DNA from: a virus
Direction: 5' to 3' (one strand)
Length of the DNA stretch: 64,000 nt
IMG/VR virus record: IMGVR_UViG_3300030098_006570
Span: 1 to 64,000 of that record
The notes beneath the pieces were generated by a model that saw only the letters and a program-made list of their open reading frames with translations, was not told the origin of the DNA and did not search any database. Below are positions 5,819 to 59,288 of the stretch, piece by piece (position 1 is the first letter of the stretch; every line of letters starts with the position of its first letter). The translations under genes and the position numbers were made by a program.

Positions 5819-6757
5819 TTATTTTTTAAGCTGCGCCCATTCCTCAGGGGATATCTGTTCGCCAGAGCCCTTTTCTTGCCCGTGCTCTTGACCGCCGCCG
5901 GCGCCGTACGGAGGATTCACATCCACCTCGCCGCCCTTCAGAGCGTTAACCGCAATCTTCAAGGCGCCAGCAACTTTCTCTTGGTCGATGACCGGCATCT
6001 GTGGTCGCTCGGGAGCAAACCCAGGAGCCTGCAAAGTCAGTTGTCCCAGATTGTTGGCTAATTTGTCAGCTGCAGCCTGAACGGCTGCTTTTCCTTCTTG
6101 ACCAGTATATTTTTCAAGAGCGGCAATAACATCTTCAGCACCTAGATTTCCCCACGGATGCCCCTTAGTCGCCATCGCGACGAGTTGCTTCTGGATGTTT
6201 TCAGGCGTAAACTGGTCGAAGCCTCCGGAGGCAGGTTTTCCTTTTTGAATCCCAAGGCGTCCTTTGGTGATCGCATTTAGAACGGCAATTAATTCGGGCG
6301 CTGGGAAGCCGACTTTGTAGCCGCCGATACCCAAACCGGGATCAATCATGCCCGTAGCTATCCACCGGTGATGACCATCCATAATATAGTTATCCTGACT
6401 AATAAAGGCTCCCAAGTCTCCTCCGGGCTTAAGTTTTCCCTGCGGGTGAAGCATCTGTACCACAAACTGCATGGCCTTTTCTATGTTCATGCTGGACTGC
6501 GAGGGCTTGAGCTGTCCCACCGGAATCCCTTTATCCCCAGTCGACACAACGTCGATGACATCATCTTCGGCGCTCTTATCGAGTTTGGGATTGCCACTAC
6601 GCGTATACTTCCTTGCTAGTTTGGTGTTAACACGGTCCAACTCTTTAGGAAAACGGACCGGGTCTAGCTTGTCGGGATCAGCCTTTTCGGTTACAAACTC
6701 GCGCCAGCTCTCCGTTATCAACTGAAGGTCTTTAAAACTACTGTACTTTTTACTCAT
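5819..6757 (-). CDS. ParB-like (DGHHR) protein with N-terminal tag, virion cargo candidate
   Basis: 312 residues. The centre holds DNYIMDGHHRWIA, the DGHHR box typical of ParB/Srx-fold proteins that act on DNA or nucleotides. The remainder is Ala/Gly/Pro rich with a disordered C-terminus. The N-terminus, LQLITESWREF, matches LIMENWRKF of the gene at 7.6 kb and carries an I-T-E site fitting the T4 prohead protease rule. I infer packaging into the capsid. The ATG at 6757 (Shine-Dalgarno GAGGAG) is preferred over a GTG at 6760. Confidence 0.72.
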   Translation of the reverse strand: MSKKYSSFKDLQLITESWREFVTEKADPDKLDPVRFPKELDRVNTKLARKYTRSGNPKLDKSAEDDVIDVVSTGDKGIPVGQLKPSQSSMNIEKAMQFVVQMLHPQGKLKPGGDLGAFISQDNYIMDGHHRWIATGMIDPGLGIGGYKVGFPAPELIAVLNAITKGRLGIQKGKPASGGFDQFTPENIQKQLVAMATKGHPWGNLGAEDVIAALEKYTGQEGKAAVQAAADKLANNLGQLTLQAPGFAPERPQMPVIDQEKVAGALKIAVNALKGGEVDVNPPYGAGGGQEHGQEKGSGEQISPEEWAQLKK

Positions 6758-6971: not shown

Positions 6972-7580
6972 CTAACCCTTGGCAAATACTCTCTGCCCAG
7001 AGGGAAGTTCCGCGGAGACGCCGGCATGGGGGAGGGTCTCTTCCGGGTCGTGAGCATCAGACGCCTCGGCAATCGCCGCCAAGGCTTGATTCACCTTATC
7101 GGTGGCTTCCTGGATTTCTTCCTCGGATGCTTCTCCGGAATCCATTAACGCTATTAACTCTCCCAGTGCTTTCTCAAGTTTCTGGTCGTCAGAAAGTTCC
7201 TCAATAAAATTCTGGATATCTTCTGCGGTGCCTTCTGGGTCTTCCCCATCTGTGACGGCATCTAACGAGTCGGATACTTCCTCTGCTGCTTCTGGCGCTG
7301 CGCCGGAAAGGCGGCGCCATAGTCCCTTGAGTTTGTCCCCTACACCACCCCGGGCTAGGGCGCCCAGTCCTGCCATGGCTATTAACTCTTTCAGACTAAA
7401 GCTCATTAGAGAAATTCTGGGACCGATGCTGATGCCCTGATGGACATTCGGCGGTCTAAGAACCGTGGTTGCAAACATCGCAATAGCCGCGATGGTCATC
7501 GGATCAATGGCTTCATTAACCTCTTCTTCGGATTCGGAAAACTTTCTCCAGTTTTCCATTATAAGTTTCATATCAGACAT
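6972..7580 (-). CDS. Tagged acidic protein with hydrophobic segment, virion cargo candidate
   Basis: 202 residues starting MSDMKLIMENWRKFSESE. The tag contains I-M-E, the (I/L)-x-E prohead protease pattern, and aligns with the tag of the ParB-like neighbour. A hydrophobic Ala/Met-rich stretch (about residues 26-90) is followed by a long acidic helical region rich in Glu/Asp. It is preceded by the CTATTTA motif at 7.6 kb, a candidate late promoter, although the next gene upstream is recA. No known family. Confidence 0.68.
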   Translation of the reverse strand: MSDMKLIMENWRKFSESEEEVNEAIDPMTIAAIAMFATTVLRPPNVHQGISIGPRISLMSFSLKELIAMAGLGALARGGVGDKLKGLWRRLSGAAPEAAEEVSDSLDAVTDGEDPEGTAEDIQNFIEELSDDQKLEKALGELIALMDSGEASEEEIQEATDKVNQALAAIAEASDAHDPEETLPHAGVSAELPSGQRVFAKG

Positions 7581-7598: not shown

Positions 7599-7613
7599 GT
7601 ATAATAAATAGTT
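7599..7613 (-). promoter_or_regulatory. Candidate late promoter motif (AACTATTTATTATAC)
   Basis: Minus-strand AACTATTTATTATAC in the gap between the recA stop and the tagged gene. The same CTATTTA core is found in five other gaps, at 28.0, 30.8, 37.4, 58.4 and 63.2 kb. Confidence 0.4.
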
Positions 7614-30855: not shown

Positions 30856-32613
30856 CTAGACTAGACCACGCACAATTACGAGTCCATACATATCAGGACG
30901 GACCATCTTCTTGGCGTATCGGGTCATCACGCCCTTACGGGGCACGAAGTCTTCAACACCGAAGATCGTAGGTGTGGTCTGCAGCGGCACATAAGGTGCA
31001 TACACATAGCCGCTCTCAAGGAAGCTACTGCCACGTCGACCCACCAGGAGAACCTGACGGGGGAAGTAAGCATCGACAAAGATGTCGAACTTCTTGGAAA
31101 GCGAACCAACCTTGACAGCACCGGCATCGCCGCGCTCATCATCAGCAGTCACATTGGCACGGAAGCCAGCCGTGAACTCAAGAATGTTGGCAACTTCAGG
31201 TCCGCAGACGACGAAGTTGGCAGCACCACGGAGAGTCTTACGGTGGATTGCAGCCGAAACCTCGTTGATTGTCTCAACAAGAGTCTCATACCACTCACTC
31301 ACGTTACCCGTGAAGTCAGCCGTACCAGCGGCCAGAGGCGTACCAGTGTCACGGTTGACAAACTGGCCGGGGTTCCGGCTCCAGTACTTCACACCAGCCC
31401 GAGCACCGATACGAAGGTCCTCAAGGATCTCCTGATCGATTTCAAGAGCGATCTGCTCAGAAAGAATCTGAGTCAGCTCGACTTCGGCGTCAAGGTTGTG
31501 GTAGGCGTTAAGATCCTGTCCTAACTCCGGGGTCCACTTGGCCTTGAGCTTCTTGGTGATCGCCGTGACAGACACGGAATCGACCTTGATGTCGATCTCG
31601 GGAATGTCAGCACTACCTTCGAGTCCCCATGTGGAAGTCGGGAGAACCGCACCAACGGGGGCACCAGCACCAGCAAAGTTGTCGGTGATAGTGAAGTAGA
31701 AGGCGTTACGGCCTGTACCAGCACCAGCAACAGTCGGAACCAGCGAGGACGACAGCTGACCGGGGTTTTGGCCACCAGCATAGTCGACAAGAGTCACAAG
31801 CAGGGTGGTGTTCGGAGCATTCGGATCGCGGCGGGTAAGGCTACGGCGAATGGCTGCCGCGGGAGCACCCGCAATGGCACCCGTGGGAGCCAGCGTAATC
31901 AGATCGTCCGTGTTGAGCTGGGCGTTGACAAGCTGAGCCAAAGGCACAGTAGCAACAGCGAACGTGGTACCACTGGGGAGATCCGCATCGAACTCAAGCA
32001 GGCTCTGCTCAGTCCGCAGAGCAGCTGCGCCGCGGAAGTTCAGAATGCTAGACGTCGAGACAGTACCCGAAGCAACAATCGTAATTCCTGTGCACAGCAG
32101 CGACGAGGTCGGAGACGAGTAGCCGTTGTTGAGAGCATAAGGACCGTCCTCAGAGAACGCACCGGTAAGGTTGACACCACCAGTAAGCTGGGCACCCACC
32201 ACGTTGCCTCCGTAAATGGACGAACCACTGGGGTAGCCATCATCGAAGACACCACGAGCACGACCACCGATCTGACCAGAGATCGTGAAGTCGAGGAAGA
32301 AGATGAGGCCTGAGGGCAGGCTCATCGGCTGGACGCTAACGAGATCGTTGGCGATCAGGTTGCCGAAGACTCGGCGAACGAGGGGGAATGCAACAGCTGC
32401 AAAACCCTCAACGTCACCAGCACTCATGCTGGAAGACTCACGGAGAAGCTCCTTTGCCTGGTTCTCAAGCAATCGGGCCATTCCGTTCCGAAGACCATCA
32501 TCGCTAATTCCCTCAAGCAGTCCGGTGTTCTCCCACTTAGAAATGAGAGCGGCACCTTCGGCCGAGAGGTCACGGTTGACGATTCCTTCGGTTAATTTCT
32601 GTACAATAGACAT
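30856..32613 (-). CDS. Major capsid protein (gp23-like)
   Basis: 585 residues. The N-terminal segment ISKWENTGLLEG and MARLLENQAKELLRES parallels T4 gp23, where the prohead protease removes 65 residues. VRRVFGNLIANDLVSVQPMS matches the start of the HK97-like core in T4-type capsids. The insertion region is Gly/Thr rich, and the C-terminus PRKGVMTRYAKKMVRPDMYG is conserved. Flanked by the scaffold gene and a terminator. Confidence 0.93.
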   Translation of the reverse strand: MSIVQKLTEGIVNRDLSAEGAALISKWENTGLLEGISDDGLRNGMARLLENQAKELLRESSSMSAGDVEGFAAVAFPLVRRVFGNLIANDLVSVQPMSLPSGLIFFLDFTISGQIGGRARGVFDDGYPSGSSIYGGNVVGAQLTGGVNLTGAFSEDGPYALNNGYSSPTSSLLCTGITIVASGTVSTSSILNFRGAAALRTEQSLLEFDADLPSGTTFAVATVPLAQLVNAQLNTDDLITLAPTGAIAGAPAAAIRRSLTRRDPNAPNTTLLVTLVDYAGGQNPGQLSSSLVPTVAGAGTGRNAFYFTITDNFAGAGAPVGAVLPTSTWGLEGSADIPEIDIKVDSVSVTAITKKLKAKWTPELGQDLNAYHNLDAEVELTQILSEQIALEIDQEILEDLRIGARAGVKYWSRNPGQFVNRDTGTPLAAGTADFTGNVSEWYETLVETINEVSAAIHRKTLRGAANFVVCGPEVANILEFTAGFRANVTADDERGDAGAVKVGSLSKKFDIFVDAYFPRQVLLVGRRGSSFLESGYVYAPYVPLQTTPTIFGVEDFVPRKGVMTRYAKKMVRPDMYGLVIVRGLV

Positions 32614-32640: not shown

Positions 32641-33735
32641 TCATTTATTATTCAAACCTGCTAAACGCAGCATGCGATCCATCTTAGAATCGCGAGTTGC
32701 CGTGTTGTTTTTCTTAGAATTGATCAAAAGCGACGTTGGTCTTGTAACAGCTTCACGAAGTGTTTGTGGACGTGTTCTCTGATCAGGAGTGTTCCCCACT
32801 GCGTTTTGAATTGTTTCATAGATCATCGCTGCTTCTTCAACAGAATTGGCAGTCTGAACAGCTTCGGCAATTTGATTCTTTTGCCGCTCATTCAAGGAGG
32901 TGCTATTCAAAGCCTTGTTTTGATAAACAAGCTTGGCGTTTGCCAAGTTCAACTTATTAAGCTGAGCCTTGGCCTCCATAATGAGAGCACGTAGCTCTCG
33001 GTTGGATTCTTTGAGTTCGGAAATCTTGGCCTCATAAAGGCCGGCGTCGCTCACGACGTCAGGGGCCGTATCGACTTCCTCTTCGATATCTTCTTCTTCC
33101 AGGTGAGCAGCCTGGGCAGCGGCCATGGCATCGTTGTTGGCCTGCTCGACACTGTTGTACGCAGAGTTGACAGAGGACCAGCCCTGGGGGCGCGGGGTCA
33201 TATCTACAACCAACTCTTCAATCAGGTCGGCCAAGAGTTCCTCACTTAAAGGAATCTCTTGGTCTTCTTCTAAGTCCACTCGCGCAGAGGATCCGGCGAG
33301 TTCGGCGGAGTCCTCTTCCGCATCGTTGTCTAGCATTGTGTCAGTAATCTCTTCGGCTAGCTCAAGCGAATCATTGAGATCAGCAGCGCTGGCCTCAACC
33401 CCGGCGGCCTCCTCCTCGGCGATACGAGTCTTCAGGGCATCAAAATCAATTTCAACCAACTCGTCAGCCGCGGGGGCATCCAACTGTTCGCTCTGGAAGC
33501 CGTAAGGCACATCTTCCATAAAAGTTGTGGAAGGGGCAGCTGCGACGCCGTCGTCTTCCTCAAGGCCTCCAAGGCCCATGGCGGCATCGTCGCCCATTTC
33601 CTGTTCTAGCAGGGTGTTGACTGCTGTACGTACCTCGTCCGCATACCGTTCGAGGACGGCCGACTCTGCATTTTTGAGTGCGGCCTCCTTGAGGGCGCCA
33701 GCATCTACGATTGCTTCTTCTAATAAGGAAGACAT
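32641..33735 (-). CDS. Prohead core scaffold protein (gp22-like)
   Basis: 364 residues, very acidic (many Glu/Asp/Ala runs), with a long C-terminal coiled coil (SDAGLYEAKISELKESNREL, then IMEAKAQLNKLNLANAKLVY). It ends with a basic tail (KNNTATRDSKMDRMLRLAGL), similar in style to scaffold tails that bind capsid protein. It lies just upstream of the capsid gene, the T4 order. It should fill the prohead and be digested by the protease. Confidence 0.82.
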   Translation of the reverse strand: MSSLLEEAIVDAGALKEAALKNAESAVLERYADEVRTAVNTLLEQEMGDDAAMGLGGLEEDDGVAAAPSTTFMEDVPYGFQSEQLDAPAADELVEIDFDALKTRIAEEEAAGVEASAADLNDSLELAEEITDTMLDNDAEEDSAELAGSSARVDLEEDQEIPLSEELLADLIEELVVDMTPRPQGWSSVNSAYNSVEQANNDAMAAAQAAHLEEEDIEEEVDTAPDVVSDAGLYEAKISELKESNRELRALIMEAKAQLNKLNLANAKLVYQNKALNSTSLNERQKNQIAEAVQTANSVEEAAMIYETIQNAVGNTPDQRTRPQTLREAVTRPTSLLINSKKNNTATRDSKMDRMLRLAGLNNK

Positions 33736-41796: not shown

Positions 41797-42246
41797 CTAC
41801 TTTCTCTCTTTTACTTCGTTCATGTGGGCACTCCAATTGCGCCCCACGGAACCAAATAAATTGCTAATATCCACACCAGCATCGTCAGGCGCGTGGCCCG
41901 CCATAGGGTTGGCTTGCTGTTGCGGTGACCCTTGGGCAGGGGCCGGGGTTGTCCCTTCAAAGAGATCGACCCCATTAAAAGCGCCGCCGCCAATGGCGGC
42001 CATCAACTTCTTCTTATGTTGTTTTAGCTTGTTACCCTGCTCCTCGCTAAACGCATTTCGTCGCATGCGCTCTTTTACGGGATCAGCCTTAGGCGCGGCT
42101 TGACGCTCTACAATGGGCTGGGGGGTGTTCATTCCTTTGACGACCTCAGCTATAATACCCGAGATAAGTCCGTCTTCCATGAGGGATTCTTTAATGCACT
42201 CATTAACCAGAGGCTTGAGGATTTTCTTTAGTTCTGACTTTTTCAT
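41797..42246 (-). CDS. Lys-rich internal virion protein candidate
   Basis: 149 residues. The N-terminus MKKSELKKILKPLVNECIKE is a short amphipathic helix like the tags elsewhere (an I-K-E site at residues 19-21, but the register differs). The middle is basic (NKLKQHKKKLMAAIGGG), then a Gln/Ala/Pro-rich linker and DDAGVDISNLFGSVGRNW. Overlaps the next gene by ATGA-style spacing. Function unknown. Confidence 0.65.
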   Translation of the reverse strand: MKKSELKKILKPLVNECIKESLMEDGLISGIIAEVVKGMNTPQPIVERQAAPKADPVKERMRRNAFSEEQGNKLKQHKKKLMAAIGGGAFNGVDLFEGTTPAPAQGSPQQQANPMAGHAPDDAGVDISNLFGSVGRNWSAHMNEVKERK

Positions 42247-43856
42247 TTTATACCTGCTAATACTTTCATTCTATCAAGTTCTTTATGTTCGGCTAGAGCT
42301 GGATTCATTTTTTCAGCTTTGGCGGCACTCACCACCTCTTGCCAGGCACGTTGGAGGTTTTCCACTTTGTTCCCCAGTCCCGGAACTTTGCCCAACTGTG
42401 CAATCATCCATGGGATCATGGGTTCACCCTCATCAGTCTTTTCGTTGATGAGTTTTTTCAATAAATCATCTGGGATAAGTTCCACGATCCCTGCGGCTCC
42501 TTGTTCGAGAACAGTCGCGGCTCGCGCATTTTTTAGGTACTTTGAGGCTGTTCGAGCTTTTCCGGCATGGCCGGCCTTGACCAACTTTCGCAGAGTTCCA
42601 AACTTCTTGGCACGGGCGGCCGCGACGGCGCCTTTGGCACCCTTACCAAGCTTACCAGCTTTCATGGCCTCCCCGACTATAGGAGTAAGAGAAACCAAAT
42701 CAAATAATGCCCACCCATACATGCCTCGACTCGTATTTAAAATAAGGCTGGCAATCGTAGCCGGCTTACTTACTGCCATGGCAGGAGGCCAAAGCCCCAC
42801 GGCACCTAAGACGTCCAGGCCGGCCTGAACTTTGTCGAGAGCAGCGTCCCATTTGCTATCTTCCTTTGCCAATATGTCCTTGGCGAGGGCTATCATTTTC
42901 TGCTGAGCTTTCTGCGCGAGGCGGGCTACCTCGTTGGGGTGTATTCCGTATTCGTCCGGACCGCGGGCGGCGGCGTTCTGATCATCGAGCAGTTCCTCGC
43001 GAGCCTCATAAGCATCTTTGGGGCTCAGCCCGAAGATGTCGGCACGCTTGTCAAGGAGCTGATTGAAGGTTTCGATGTCAATTCTTATGGTCCCCCACTT
43101 AAAGTCGTTCGGCTCAACGGAAGAGAAAAATTCCTCTAGAGTCTCGTCGTCCAAGGATAAGAAAAACTCACCAAAGTCGACTGCTTCTTCTTCAGGATCT
43201 GCTACAGTGAGGATTGAAGGGATGTCTTCCTCTTCATCTTCAAGGTCTGGAGCAGCAACTGGTTCCGTTACAATGGTGTCTGTCTGGTCTTCTTGATCCG
43301 GATCCGGGCCCCGGACTGGTTCTGCTACAATGGTGTCTGTTTGGTCTTCTTCATCTGGAGCAGCCACTGGTTCTGCTACAATGGTGTCTGTCTGGTCTTC
43401 GTCTGGTTCGGGATCAGCCACAGTGAGGATCGAGGGAATGTTATCAGCTATACTTTTAACGACCGGACTAATATCCAAGGCGCTACGATTAAACACTGCC
43501 AACAACTGTTTAAAAACTTTGGGGTTCTTTTGGGCTATGGTATCTAAAAATACTTTGAGCTTGGGAGCATTTTGGTGTGTAACCACCACATCTTCCTCAC
43601 CGGTGAAAAGGCGCTCATTTTCTTTAACAACAAAGCCTTCGTCTTCAAGAACGCCAGTAAGTTCATCTACAATAGCTTCGCGTTGTGAGGGTGTGAGCTT
43701 TGCTCCGGACATTTTAGACGCATCGTTCAGTCCCTTAATGATGGTCACTAGTTCGGATGCCGGGTATTCTTTGGTTGCCTCTTTCTTGCCGAAACCAAAG
43801 ATTTCATTAATCTCTGCCTCGATCAGACGATCCAATTCAGCCCGGGAAATTCTCAT
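42243..43856 (-). CDS. Tagged acidic-repeat protein, internal virion protein candidate
   Basis: 537 residues. The N-terminus MRISRAELDRLIEAEINEIF aligns with the M-K-I-T-K tag of the 57-58 kb proteins. A central acidic region has three EDQTDTIV(A/T)EPV repeats and two DIPSILTVADPE repeats (about residues 135-220). The C-terminal half is Ala/Lys rich and helical with a hydrophobic patch. Located between the protease and bS21, which is the head-gene zone, so packaging in the head is likely but unproven. Confidence 0.7.
   Translation of the reverse strand: MRISRAELDRLIEAEINEIFGFGKKEATKEYPASELVTIIKGLNDASKMSGAKLTPSQREAIVDELTGVLEDEGFVVKENERLFTGEEDVVVTHQNAPKLKVFLDTIAQKNPKVFKQLLAVFNRSALDISPVVKSIADNIPSILTVADPEPDEDQTDTIVAEPVAAPDEEDQTDTIVAEPVRGPDPDQEDQTDTIVTEPVAAPDLEDEEEDIPSILTVADPEEEAVDFGEFFLSLDDETLEEFFSSVEPNDFKWGTIRIDIETFNQLLDKRADIFGLSPKDAYEAREELLDDQNAAARGPDEYGIHPNEVARLAQKAQQKMIALAKDILAKEDSKWDAALDKVQAGLDVLGAVGLWPPAMAVSKPATIASLILNTSRGMYGWALFDLVSLTPIVGEAMKAGKLGKGAKGAVAAARAKKFGTLRKLVKAGHAGKARTASKYLKNARAATVLEQGAAGIVELIPDDLLKKLINEKTDEGEPMIPWMIAQLGKVPGLGNKVENLQRAWQEVVSAAKAEKMNPALAEHKELDRMKVLAGIK
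43200..43430 (-). repeat. Tandem acidic repeat in the 537-aa protein
   Basis: DNA repeats with a core ACAATGGTGTCTGT(C/T)TGGTC on the plus strand, encoding D-Q-T-D-T-I-V units. Confidence 0.8.
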
Positions 43857-43858
43857 TA

Positions 43859-44458
43859 TTAACCCTCTAAAATACTATCCATCAAGTTGATGATTTTGTT
43901 AGTCTTGGCTACATGTTCATTCATGAGCTTATTTTCAGAAAGGGCCATAAAGGCGTTGGGGGTTGACGGCTCGGATACAATGTCAAAACAGATAAGCTGA
44001 AAGTCATCCTCGACAATCGTCTTGCCCATACGCTCGGTAACCGATCCCATCCCCCGCGAGGAGATACCGATCTTCACTCCCGACTCCACCAAGGCGCGCA
44101 AGATTTGGCCAGAGGGAGTCTTGAGAACTTTGCACTTACCCATTACGGAGGCACCATCCATCCATACCTCAGTTACCATGTGGGAAACGTTGGCAAGATT
44201 GATGATGGAAGAATCAGGGTGGTCTAACTCGCCGAGAGCACGGTTATCTTCAACAATCTGCTTGTACCTTTTTACTTCGCGCTCCATGATTCCTCTAGGA
44301 TACACTCGTCCATTTCCGTTCTGGACATCTGCTTCCTGCAGCTTGCCAGTTAACATCATACCACCATTACGCACAAAGGTCTTCTCGGCTTCCGTCAGTA
44401 AATCTTGACAGACGCCGCCTTCGCATAGTTCATAGAATTCTCGTAATAGTTTAGCCAT
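43859..44458 (-). CDS. Prohead maturation protease (gp21-like)
   Basis: 199 residues. NGNGRVYPRGIMEREV, GELDHPDSS (H80) and KIGISSRGMGS (Ser 133/134) are the T4-type prohead protease motifs, with the catalytic His and Ser in place. It should cut the scaffold, capsid N-terminus and tagged internal proteins at (I/L)-x-E. Flanked by head genes. Confidence 0.9.
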   Translation of the reverse strand: MAKLLREFYELCEGGVCQDLLTEAEKTFVRNGGMMLTGKLQEADVQNGNGRVYPRGIMEREVKRYKQIVEDNRALGELDHPDSSIINLANVSHMVTEVWMDGASVMGKCKVLKTPSGQILRALVESGVKIGISSRGMGSVTERMGKTIVEDDFQLICFDIVSEPSTPNAFMALSENKLMNEHVAKTNKIINLMDSILEG

Positions 44459-57208: not shown

Positions 57209-57658
57209 TTAAAAGTTTCTTGGATAATCGCGCTTAATGGCGTGAACACGTTCGCCCTTGGCTAGCCGGCCTTTGATCCTATCTACATCACCCTGATGGA
57301 GGCGACCTTTTGACTTTTCAAATTCTGCTTTCCGAATAAGATCCTGAGCCTCAGCGTTGCTCTCCTCCATCGGAGCGTACATCGGGTTGGCCAGGATGTG
57401 ACGAAGCGAAGCAACCATGTCGGCGTCCAAACTCATACTGAGATCTTCCAACTCATCGCGGGTCATCTTGCCCAGGGCCTCTCTAGCCTTTATGAGAATG
57501 AGAAGCCGCTCTTCGGGGGATGTGAAGGCCCGGTCGCGAGTCTCCTCATCCTCCGGTTCGGCGATATCTTCAATGCCAGCACCGGGGCGGTCGGCGCCGC
57601 GCATGGCATCCATCTCTTCCTTGATAATCTTTTTAAGTCTTTGTTTCGTGATTTTCAT
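57209..57658 (-). CDS. Tagged protein with MKIT N-terminus, virion cargo candidate
   Basis: 149 residues. MKITKQRLKKIIKEEMDAM carries I12-K13-E14, a T4-type prohead protease site. The rest is acidic and helical with a basic end (RDYPRNF). No known domain. First of four genes in tandem that share the tag and overlap or nearly touch. Confidence 0.72.
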   Translation of the reverse strand: MKITKQRLKKIIKEEMDAMRGADRPGAGIEDIAEPEDEETRDRAFTSPEERLLILIKAREALGKMTRDELEDLSMSLDADMVASLRHILANPMYAPMEESNAEAQDLIRKAEFEKSKGRLHQGDVDRIKGRLAKGERVHAIKRDYPRNF

Positions 57659-57987
57659 GGCTTCTTGAACCTCTCCTTGTCGGATCTATAATCTCCAGCA
57701 GAACGCTTGCGCCCGATCCTTTTCAGTCCCTGCCGCATTCTTTTGATCTTCTCTGGTGTAATTTGTGGTAATTCTAGGGTTGCTTCTTCGTCCTCTTTCT
57801 CGGACTCTTCCTTCATGGGGCCGCTGCACATCTCTTCGGCCTCTGCTTTGGACAGTCCCTCAGGACGGTCGGCATCTTCGTCAGCCATGGCGCACATGTA
57901 GTTACGCTGCTTTTCGGAGTGAACTTCAACCACCGAAGCAATCTCTTCTTTGATAATCTGGTGTAATCTTGTTTTACTAATCTTCAT
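57655..57987 (-). CDS. Tagged protein with MKIS N-terminus, virion cargo candidate
   Basis: 110 residues. MKISKTRLHQIIKEEI has the tag in the same register (I12-K13-E14). Body with CAMADEDADR and MCSGPMKEESEKED (acidic), then a basic Arg/Lys-rich end (MRQGLKRIGRKRSAGDYR) that could bind DNA inside the head. Confidence 0.72.
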   Translation of the reverse strand: MKISKTRLHQIIKEEIASVVEVHSEKQRNYMCAMADEDADRPEGLSKAEAEEMCSGPMKEESEKEDEEATLELPQITPEKIKRMRQGLKRIGRKRSAGDYRSDKERFKKP

Positions 57988-58109
57988 TTCTTGGTCTCCA
58001 TTGTACCTAAGAGGTCTTCGCCCATGTATCGAATCTCATAAACCATTACTGCTCTCAAATAGAGTATTTCTTGAATCATGTTTGTTAGGTGGGCTCCTGA
58101 TATCTTCAT
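57984..58109 (-). CDS. Short tagged protein, 41 aa
   Basis: MKISGAHLTNMIQEIL keeps the tag register (I12-Q13-E14). It has only 41 residues and continues YLRAVMVYEIRYMG. ATGA overlap with the next gene. Too short for homology but fixed by the tag and coupling. Confidence 0.6.
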   Translation of the reverse strand: MKISGAHLTNMIQEILYLRAVMVYEIRYMGEDLLGTMETKK

Positions 58110-58110
58110 T

Positions 58111-58344
58111 TTATAGAATATTTTTTAGCGCGTCGTTCAGGAAGTCTCGGAGATTCTCTATAGCTACATACTGCACTGCTTCCCGAATAGCACCATCAAG
58201 CTCTTCAAGAACACCTATTTCGGTTTGGCTTTTGCCGTATCTTTCGGCAGGAGTTCGCATATCGGGCTCTTCCTCTTCTGTTACGGCACCGAGTCCTATC
58301 TCTTCCTTGATGATTTCTCGTAATCTTTGTTTGGTGATTTTCAT
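58111..58344 (-). CDS. Tagged protein with MKIT N-terminus, virion cargo candidate
   Basis: 77 residues. MKITKQRLREIIKEEIGLG differs from the 57.2 kb protein at one position over the first 15 residues, but the bodies are unrelated (helical, ELDGAIREAVQYVAIENLRD). Start 58344 has AGGAG at 5-base spacing; the longer in-frame reading overlaps the primase and is rejected. The CTATTTA motif lies 35 bases upstream. Confidence 0.72.
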   Translation of the reverse strand: MKITKQRLREIIKEEIGLGAVTEEEEPDMRTPAERYGKSQTEIGVLEELDGAIREAVQYVAIENLRDFLNDALKNIL

Positions 58345-58352
58345 GACTTCTC

Positions 58353-59288
58353 CTACAGCGACATGGCAATTGTCAACAATAAATAGTTGTCCGGAGTGAT
58401 AAGAGTCGCATTTTCCAGGCATTTCTGGAATTGTCCCTTATTCATAGACCCGACGTCTTCGTTATCACCGATATCAACCTTCCAAACCTCGATATCAAAA
58501 TCCAGCAAAGTTTTGATAATTTCAAGCTCTTTCTTCTTTGCGTCAGGGTCTAGCGCCACATAAACTCCCGCGTCTTCTTTCACGATCCTACGGAGCAAAA
58601 CAGAGTTCTGATTTAATGTAGACCCCAGAATGGGGACTGCGTTCCTGCCCGCTGTAATGGCATCAAACACACCCTCTACCAGAATGATATCGGAACTCCA
58701 GTCCACAAATAAATCGTTGAAGACAATATTCTTGCTGACCGGAGGATTCTTGTACTTAGGATAGAACTTCTTGTCGTAGGAGCGAGACACAAAATATGTC
58801 AGATCGCCCTCTTCGTCAAACGACGGAATAATGATACGACCTTCGTACTCGCCACTGGCGCAGTAGCCCATCTTCCACCACATGATATCTTTCTTATCGA
58901 TACCGCGCTTGCGTAGATAGTTACGGGCCGCGAACCCTGTGGGTGGAACATCTTTGCTGGCCAGAGAAACAAAGCCCTCGGGCATCTCAACTACTTGCTT
59001 TTCTTCAATTGTCTCTGCGAAAAGATCTTCGAGCTTGTCATATTCAACAGCGTCAGTAAACTCTCGCCAAGCTGCCTTATCAGAGTGATTGCCGAAGCGG
59101 CGAATAACACGATAGATATTTTTACCACGCGTGTCGCATATCCAGCATTTGTAGTAGCCCTTAGCCACATTGACAGAAAACTTACGCTTATGATGATTAC
59201 AATAGGGACAAGCAAATAGATACTCATTGTTGGATCTGTACGCTGGCCCGAGGACGTTAGTTAGAATCTTGAGTTTCTTGGCTTTCAC
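58353..59288 (-). CDS. dnaG: DnaG/gp61-type DNA primase
   Basis: 311 residues from a GTG start. N-terminal zinc ribbon with CPYC (residues 27-30) and CWIC (48-51), and a TOPRIM core (EYEGRIIIPSFDEEGDLTYF, then ILVEGVFDAITAGR and ALDPDAKKKE). It makes RNA primers for lagging-strand synthesis with the DnaB-type helicase. It overlaps the resolvase by 32 bases. A TTG at 59309 is an alternative start. Confidence 0.9.
   Translation of the reverse strand: MKAKKLKILTNVLGPAYRSNNEYLFACPYCNHHKRKFSVNVAKGYYKCWICDTRGKNIYRVIRRFGNHSDKAAWREFTDAVEYDKLEDLFAETIEEKQVVEMPEGFVSLASKDVPPTGFAARNYLRKRGIDKKDIMWWKMGYCASGEYEGRIIIPSFDEEGDLTYFVSRSYDKKFYPKYKNPPVSKNIVFNDLFVDWSSDIILVEGVFDAITAGRNAVPILGSTLNQNSVLLRRIVKEDAGVYVALDPDAKKKELEIIKTLLDFDIEVWKVDIGDNEDVGSMNKGQFQKCLENATLITPDNYLLLTIAMSL
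58380..58386 (-). promoter_or_regulatory. Candidate late promoter motif (CTATTTA) before the tagged gene cluster
   Basis: Minus-strand AACTATTTATTG, within the last codons of the primase and 35 bases before the first tagged gene. Placement would let cargo genes be expressed late inside an early region. Confidence 0.4.

Follow-up and report, generated by a model that had tools for sequence, protein, structure and literature searches.

The first 64 kb of the 148,084-bp virus record IMGVR_UViG_3300030098_006570, hereafter the window, come from a distantly T4-like virus of marine bacteria and encode proteins with unrelated bodies that begin with one of two short conserved sequences. Tag A, with the consensus MKI[ST]KxRLxxIIKEE, is nearly identical on three adjacent genes of the window, whereas tag B (MKLLxENWRKYLxE) is unrelated to it. 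Both tags recur in other viruses on hundreds of different bodies, and they exchange places in front of homologous bodies. Judged from these sequences, tags A and B are probably capsid-targeting propeptides that would dock their proteins in the head and be cut off by the head protease, leaving the body inside to be injected.

Two tags on unrelated bodies

A position-specific scoring matrix (PSSM) for tag A, trained mostly on tagged proteins of other viruses but including the window's own three strong tags, scores above 0 at five of the 2,024 ATG starts of the whole record. Four of these belong to adjacent genes, with scores of 43.2, 39.0, 7.1 and 43.7, and the fifth to the gene of a 537-aa protein (3.4). 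The best remaining start scores -8.8, and no gene in a control set of 1,290 scores above -1.9. A strict degenerate tag-A pattern matches the window exactly three times (57614-57658, 57943-57987 and 58300-58344), with 0.00 matches in 100 dinucleotide shuffles. The first-pass annotation had described a shared tag with I-x-E at residues 12-14 on the four adjacent genes; all four are present on the minus strand with this motif in place (IKE, IKE, IQE and IKE), and the tag is strong in three (strict pattern, PSSM 39.0-43.7) but weak in the 41-aa open reading frame (ORF). The tag-like start proposed there for the 537-aa protein also scores above 0. The PSSM scores therefore indicate that the 41-aa ORF and the 537-aa protein bear only weak versions of tag A, and the former may be a decayed cassette. 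The proteins at 5.82 and 6.97 kb, earlier grouped with these on account of an LIxExWRxF sequence, are tagged, but with the separate tag B (scores 21 and 25). Tag B marks six genes of the whole record and tag A another six, two of them weakly. Beyond the window lie four of the tag-B genes, grouped at 122962-125852, and one tag-A gene at 120925-121257, whose tag begins three residues in.

Pattern scans of IMG/VR returned at least 120 stretches for each tag, and 646 tagged bodies were collected; the counts that follow apply among the matches listed. An alignment by N-terminus of 308 tag-A and 197 tag-B distinct proteins has high information content along the tag, and the content drops to background immediately past E14 in tag B and past residue 16 in tag A; values at positions set by the search pattern are inflated, which does not apply to the fall after the tag. 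Among 136 aligned representatives, no column but E14 is invariant, and columns average 4% identity. After removal of the tag and six further residues, 609 bodies of at least 40 aa form 431 sequence clusters, including 362 singletons. A short N-terminal leader is thus common to unrelated bodies, which is a T4-type trait. Pfam and PHROG searches of the 136 representatives identify protein kinase, NUDIX, zeta-toxin/polynucleotide kinase, pentapeptide-repeat, GNAT, M23 peptidase, HAD, nucleotidyltransferase, tRNA-ligase CPD, ParB-like and endolysin families, and most of these bodies match no family in either collection. AlphaFold models present the tag as a separate helix (8-24; 2-13) ahead of the folded body. 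The tandem arrangement of tagged genes is what duplicates would show, and the tag could then be the best-conserved end of diverged paralogues of one gene. However, the folds are unrelated (kinase-like, HAD, NUDIX, GNAT, ParB-like, pentapeptide and M23), identity falls abruptly at the tag end, and one body is found with two unrelated tags, which already contradicts this scarcely credible reading.

The tag starts are real gene starts, as indicated by Shine-Dalgarno cores at 59% of them compared with 11% of all ATGs. The cassettes have start regions and strong Shine-Dalgarno sites in common, as would be expected if the shared 5' end were a leader acting on RNA or translation for high or timed expression. 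Such a leader is very improbable: among the aligned matches it is the amino acids that are conserved while the codons vary, and two unrelated peptides play one and the same role.

Both tags occur within 12 of the body clusters, which indicates that tags move between bodies and that neither is limited to homologous ones. The body of the gene at 5819 follows tag B in the window and tag A in two other viruses (G001 and G018), with 48-49% identity over ~280 aa. Its junction in the window reads ..WREFVTE then KADPDKLDPVRFP (TE then KADPDKLDP), whereas the tag-A joins read MKLSREDLERMIKEETEDLLGE then KANPDEFDPARFP in G001 and ..ITKSQLKKLLKEEFKRRLKE then RADPAGVDPNRFP in G018 (GE then KANPDEFDP and KE then RADPAGVDP). 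Similarly, the body of the gene at 57655 begins after VVE, and homologous bodies in other viruses begin after LTE or IKE. In these clearest swaps, homologous bodies start just after (L/I/V)-x-E, the cleavage motif of T4 gp21.

Five tagged genes, four with tag A and one with tag B, occupy the corresponding locus of the close relative G016, between primase and SbcCD genes. Two of their bodies are orthologous to those at 57209 and 57655, the former conserved together with its tag (L405:6878-7348), and the others differ; the place of the gene at 58111-58344 is taken by a tag-B gene with an unrelated body. No homologue of the 77-aa protein of 58111-58344 turned up, and relatives of the body at 6972-7571 were looked for and none found. 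From its gene content, the 57-58-kb locus is a fast-changing cassette locus.

Three tag-B proteins of the record give indications of function. In the body at 5819-6757, DGHHRW is invariant, and comparison of structures gives weak matches to ParB and sulfiredoxin (best E 0.02, probability 0.89). The predicted model of 123597-124328 matches APH(2'')-IVa, an aminoglycoside phosphotransferase, and other kinase-like enzymes first in Foldseek (E 5e-5, probability 1.00, TM ~0.35), which makes this protein a candidate kinase carried in the head. Homologues of the protein with a HAD-type motif at 122962-123531, located at four further loci (L122, L041, L065 and L042) likewise carry tag B.

Up to 18 strict tag-A copies occur in one genome. 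No tag is present in 120 random virus loci (1.0 Mb), and none of 1,290 control genes exceeds the threshold; among 85,000 prokaryote genomes, tag A occurs in only 12 stretches. One of these lies on the 305-kb contig NHDW01000006.1 (L411, L416 and L418), which is binned as Methylococcaceae, carries an S77 protease and at least 18 tags and is evidently phage. PBIO01000025.1 (L412 and L414), from a metagenome-assembled genome labelled Halobacteriovorax, has dense tag-A clusters, and both contigs look like jumbo-phage contigs mis-binned into bacterial genomes. In LR756508, a 484-kb uncultured huge phage, divergent tag-A genes are detected by profile; about eight of them (MRLSERKLRRIVKEEISRVLRE and similar) form a tandem cluster at ~187000-195000 of LR756508.1 (L423:7201-14808), which indicates that the tag reaches huge phages. 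Because these tags match by profile only, the strict patterns underestimate the spread.

Additionally, tag-A copies without a Met of their own lie inside long proteins (L242:3522-4709, L275:1833-2528, L137:3156-4430, L108:6440-7693 and, at the C-terminus, L248:4054-5046), which by their sequence suggests polyproteins with several protease sites. Small modules are shuffled among tagged proteins, including SEKQRRYMCAM...GLSKAEAEEMC, EGxMAxxxLF..A..LHDxLxD...WVQxK, CWDGYKKVGMKKK and KVYVKDPKTGNVKKVNFGDPNM...RKSFRARHNC; they sit in window gene 57655-57987, at 120925-121257 and 124611-125852 of the record and at many other loci. PADLOC matches on the bodies are too scattered for any interpretation. 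The tag strings are absent from the open-access papers searched, and this absence is weak evidence of novelty.

Tag end, protease and head genes

At the sequence level, both leaders contain the (L/I)-x-E motif of gp21 at or near their end. In tag B, L-x-E is fixed at residues 12-14 and conservation stops there. In tag A, I12-x-E14 is fixed, yet E15 and L/I16 are still conserved past it. A second L/I-x-E occurs in tag A at residues 19-21 in 14% of proteins and at 20-22 in 21%, compared with 2% in shuffles (7-10 fold), and some [LIVMF]xE ends at residues 18-27 in 72% compared with 32% in shuffles. The second site is plain in jumbo-phage tag A (MKITKRQLRRIIKEEKxKLLxE). The cut at I12-x-E14 proposed in the first-pass annotation is therefore matched by the equivalent L-x-E at the end of tag B, and is uncertain for tag A, in which the second L-x-E (19-22) is enriched and coincides with body starts. 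Tag A is probably a module of 20-22 residues ending at the second L-x-E in many members. Since the window's own tag-A genes have no canonical second L-x-E, I12-x-E14 may serve in them. Only in tag B does the amphipathic moment of the tag helix reach significance (p 0.04), and amphipathicity does not count as evidence here.

By analogy with T4, we infer the following sequence of events. The tag would be a short helix that docks a new protein onto the scaffold core of the growing prohead, and the gp21-type protease would cut after (L/I)-x-E at the tag end, at residues 12-14 in tag B and, in tag A, often at the second L-x-E around residues 19-22 and otherwise at I12-x-E14. The freed body would remain in the head and be injected with the DNA to act in the host. 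As a self-contained module ending at its own cut site, the tag would turn any gene that gains it into cargo, and phages would build large, fast-changing cargo sets at cassette loci.

Alternatively, the tag may be a permanent docking helix, uncut at its end, that brings proteins into contact with one another, with the portal or with the prohead core. The conservation of E15 and L16 in tag A and the lack of a clean second L-x-E in the four window tags agree with this proposal, and the head-cluster protein at 41797, with its several L-x-E motifs, may be a degraded part of the scaffold instead. However, in the clearest swaps the bodies begin directly after an (L/I/V)-x-E, the second L-x-E is enriched 7-10 fold, and a protease and a capsid LLRE site are both present; a helix that stays in place is thus unlikely.

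The gp21-like protease reported at 43.9 kb in the first-pass annotation is borne out by its Pfam match (Table 1). Its LTE at residue 23 is conserved in 91% of 57 sequences, and its best cultured matches are from Flavobacterium and Synechococcus phages at <45% identity. Of 24 capsid protein sequences, 88% have L-[RK]-E at window residue 59, ahead of the VRR..QPM block, an arrangement also present in T4 gp23; LLRE at residues 56-59 is the predicted propeptide cleavage site. The portal, protease, scaffold and capsid genes follow the T4-like order, as compared with T4 and cyanophage records; gp21 and gp23 are assigned by Pfam, and the window portal and scaffold by position and resemblance only. 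From its position, 32641-33735 likely encodes the scaffold.

The conserved head-cluster protein at 41797 suggests a link between tag A and the head. In jumbo relatives, the corresponding protein opens with M-x-I-[ST]-[KR]-x-x-L-K-x-[LI]-V-K-E-C-L-V-E-I-L-x-E-G, which is colinear with tag A including the second L-x-E; the form in shorter genomes, the window copy included, has an insertion and fails the gapless tag-A profile (score -61). In about half of 26 relatives, assessed partly by eye, a gene with either tag is found at most two or three genes away from the protease. Only these close surroundings look enriched in tagged genes; over the head cluster as a whole no clear enrichment is seen (17 of 355 ORFs compared with 11 of 160 in the whole genome). 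The tag might instead direct proteins to a target outside the head, for example to a membrane or replication compartment, a host complex or degradation machinery: short helical N-terminal addresses are common for many compartments, and some cargo families (nucleases and kinases) would be sensible in the infected cell. The tag-A-like N-terminus of the head-cluster protein, the tagged genes beside the protease, the L-x-E at junctions and the near absence of the tag from cellular genomes make such an address quite improbable.

Residues 22-34 of the capsid protein and residues 8-20 of T4 gp23 (ELLNKWKPLLEGE) are LLxKWxxxGLLEG-like and resemble tag B by eye. Tag B might mimic the capsid-protein propeptide, for which the profile score is far below threshold. 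The S77 protease at 156507-158102 of LR756508.1 gives two separate matches within a single open frame of 576 aa, as though interrupted by an insert, perhaps an intein.

Candidate late motif and features of the record

The motif CTATTTAT occurs 13 times on the gene strand and 0 times on the other, with 3.2 expected; its gene-strand positions include 7611, 37401, 58386, 63160, 64481, 116790 and 128900. It lies 25-46 bp ahead of several gene starts, including those of structural genes and of the tagged clusters at 7.6 and 58.4 kb, in agreement with the first-pass annotation, which had placed a candidate late motif before these two clusters. CTATTTAT is a possible late promoter of this phage group. 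The T4 late promoter TATAAATA, also tried, shows no gene-strand enrichment.

At the left end of the window, 194-556 resembles by eye an A-type iron-sulfur carrier (HesB/IscA-like, with a CGCG ending), a candidate auxiliary metabolic gene; it adjoins a ribonucleotide-reductase-like gene at 504-2924, also assigned by eye. Rfam yields no match in the window.

Table 1. Tagged genes, head genes and candidate late-motif sites in the record
Feature	Coordinates	Strand	Details
Tag-B gene	5819..6757	-	QLITESWREFVTE then KADPDKLDP...; ParB/Srx-like body; tag-B score 21
Tag-B gene, 199 aa	6972..7571	-	MKLIMENWRKFSESE...; tag-B score 25; final cleavage motif degenerate
CTATTTATT motif	7603..7611	-	31 bp before start of the 6972 gene
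gp23-type major capsid protein	30856..32613	-	PF07068, E 8e-71; conserved LLRE at residues 56-59
Candidate scaffold	32641..33735	-	Position of gp22, just upstream of the gene for the capsid protein; L-x-E conserved at several places
Conserved head-cluster protein	41797..42246	-	N-terminus MKKSELKKILKPLVNECIKESLMEDG; 38 relatives; several L-x-E
537-aa protein, weak tag A	42243..43856	-	MRISRAELDRLIEAEI; score 3.4; directly downstream of protease gene
gp21-type prohead protease (Peptidase_S77)	43859..44458	-	PF03420, E 3.6e-32; conserved DLLTE at residue 23
Tag-A gene, 149 aa	57209..57658	-	Tag in first 14-15 codons, 57614-57658; body SPEERLLILIKAREALGK...
Tag-A gene, 110 aa	57655..57987	-	Body VHSEKQRNYMCAM... 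joined to tag after VVE
41-aa ORF, weak tag A	57984..58109	-	MKISGAHLTNMIQEI; PSSM 7.1
Tag-A gene, 77 aa	58111..58344	-	Strong tag by pattern and PSSM
CTATTTATT motif	58378..58386	-	42 bp before start of 58111-58344
Tag-B protein, HAD-type motif	122962-123531 (L007:2962-3531)	-	FDYDDT, by inspection
Tag-B protein, kinase-like fold	123597-124328 (L007:3597-4328)	-	GAGSFRAVY loop; predicted model and Foldseek

Relation to known systems and biological meaning

In T4, propeptides of 10-19 residues are cut after L/I-x-E, and the internal proteins Ip1-3, each of which blocks a different GmrSD restriction enzyme, have the leader alone in common (PMC9026906, PMC12373910). Residues 4 and 7 of the T4 capsid-targeting sequence (CTS) serve targeting, and residues 8 and 10 serve processing (PMC9026906). 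The system described here resembles T4 IPI-III and Alt in its short leader on otherwise unrelated proteins, its (L/I)-x-E end, its gp21-family protease and its gp23-type capsid, and it also has varied cargo at variable loci. T4 ipII and ipIII start with MKTYQEFIAE (NC_000866), which contains YQEFIAE, and tag B has the same core, aromatic-x-x-aromatic-[IL]-x-E; [WYF]xx[WYF][ILV]xE is found in 231 of 262 tag-B proteins. Unlike T4, these phages have two tags that are distinct and interchangeable, strict tag-A copies numbering up to 18 per genome as against a handful, far broader cargo families and mostly acidic bodies. Tag A further differs from the T4 CTS as a helix of 14-22 residues that the conserved head-cluster protein also has. 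Each tag may have its own core partner, with A mimicking the head-cluster protein and B making a T4-CTS-like contact.

Besides the conservation of tag A past I12-x-E14, several observations weigh against capsid targeting by these tags. The leaders show no recognisable homology to MKTYQEFIAE of T4 at the profile level, since ipII and ipIII score -34 to -40 on both profiles. The internal proteins of T4 are described as basic (PMC9026906), whereas 81% of the tagged bodies have a net negative charge. Some mixed-tag clusters are linked through a common downstream module and not the whole body, and 12 is therefore an upper figure for whole-body swaps. An S77 protease is encoded in 27 of 32 tagged contigs of at least 100 kb, and it is also encoded in 7 of 8 random virus contigs of that length; its presence in the same genome is thus non-discriminating, and co-occurrence was dropped as an argument. 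In favour of capsid targeting, by contrast, the five tagged long contigs without the protease are also without gp23. The strict patterns match nothing in LR756508, in five cultured T4-like phages or in 12 random contigs, 7 of which encode an S77 protease; the S77-positive random contigs and cultured T4-like phages among these indicate that phages with gp21 do not carry the tags as a rule. Searches of INPHARED by tblastn, with full tagged proteins and with bare tags, found no cultured tag-bearing phage. The best reading of the comparison is that the tags are functionally T4-like and, by sequence, represent a separate, larger, two-tag version of T4 capsid targeting.

Two other systems deliver proteins through the head. 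In phage P1, an N-terminal signal, for which the first 30 residues are enough, sends DarB into the head for delivery (PMC9024508). Compared by description, the P1 signal differs from the tags in that it serves one protein and has no gp21-type L-x-E junction, and its source describes no common tag across unrelated bodies (PMC9024508). Giant phages such as SPN3US, whose ejection proteins have propeptides for the prohead protease, resemble the present case in their many head proteins that are processed after Glu by a distant gp21 relative and injected; they differ in protease branch and cleavage motif, and the parts of the sources consulted describe no swappable common N-terminal tag (PMC5694885, PMC10052503, PMC9026906).

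A broader interpretation, towards which we lean, is that the two interchangeable tags constitute a general head-loading code in a branch of uncultured marine and giant T4-like phages, and that the hundreds of families behind them are an injected arsenal that can be read from the tag, which would include kinase-like, phosphatase-like, acetyltransferase and nuclease-like enzymes. As a rule, only virion proteomics, carried out on phages in culture, reveals which proteins travel in a phage head and are injected. Should the tags be loading signals, sequence alone would be enough to list what a large uncultured group injects. Most of this cargo is without known function and would be expected to counter host defences or to act on metabolism in the opening minutes of infection, as do Ip1-3 and Alt of T4. 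The core-targeting mechanism has been termed still mysterious (PMC9958956). If the reading of the tags as capsid-targeting propeptides is true, they would provide two new packaging tags that are unrelated in sequence, together with a natural record of tags moving between proteins, and the mechanism would become directly testable.
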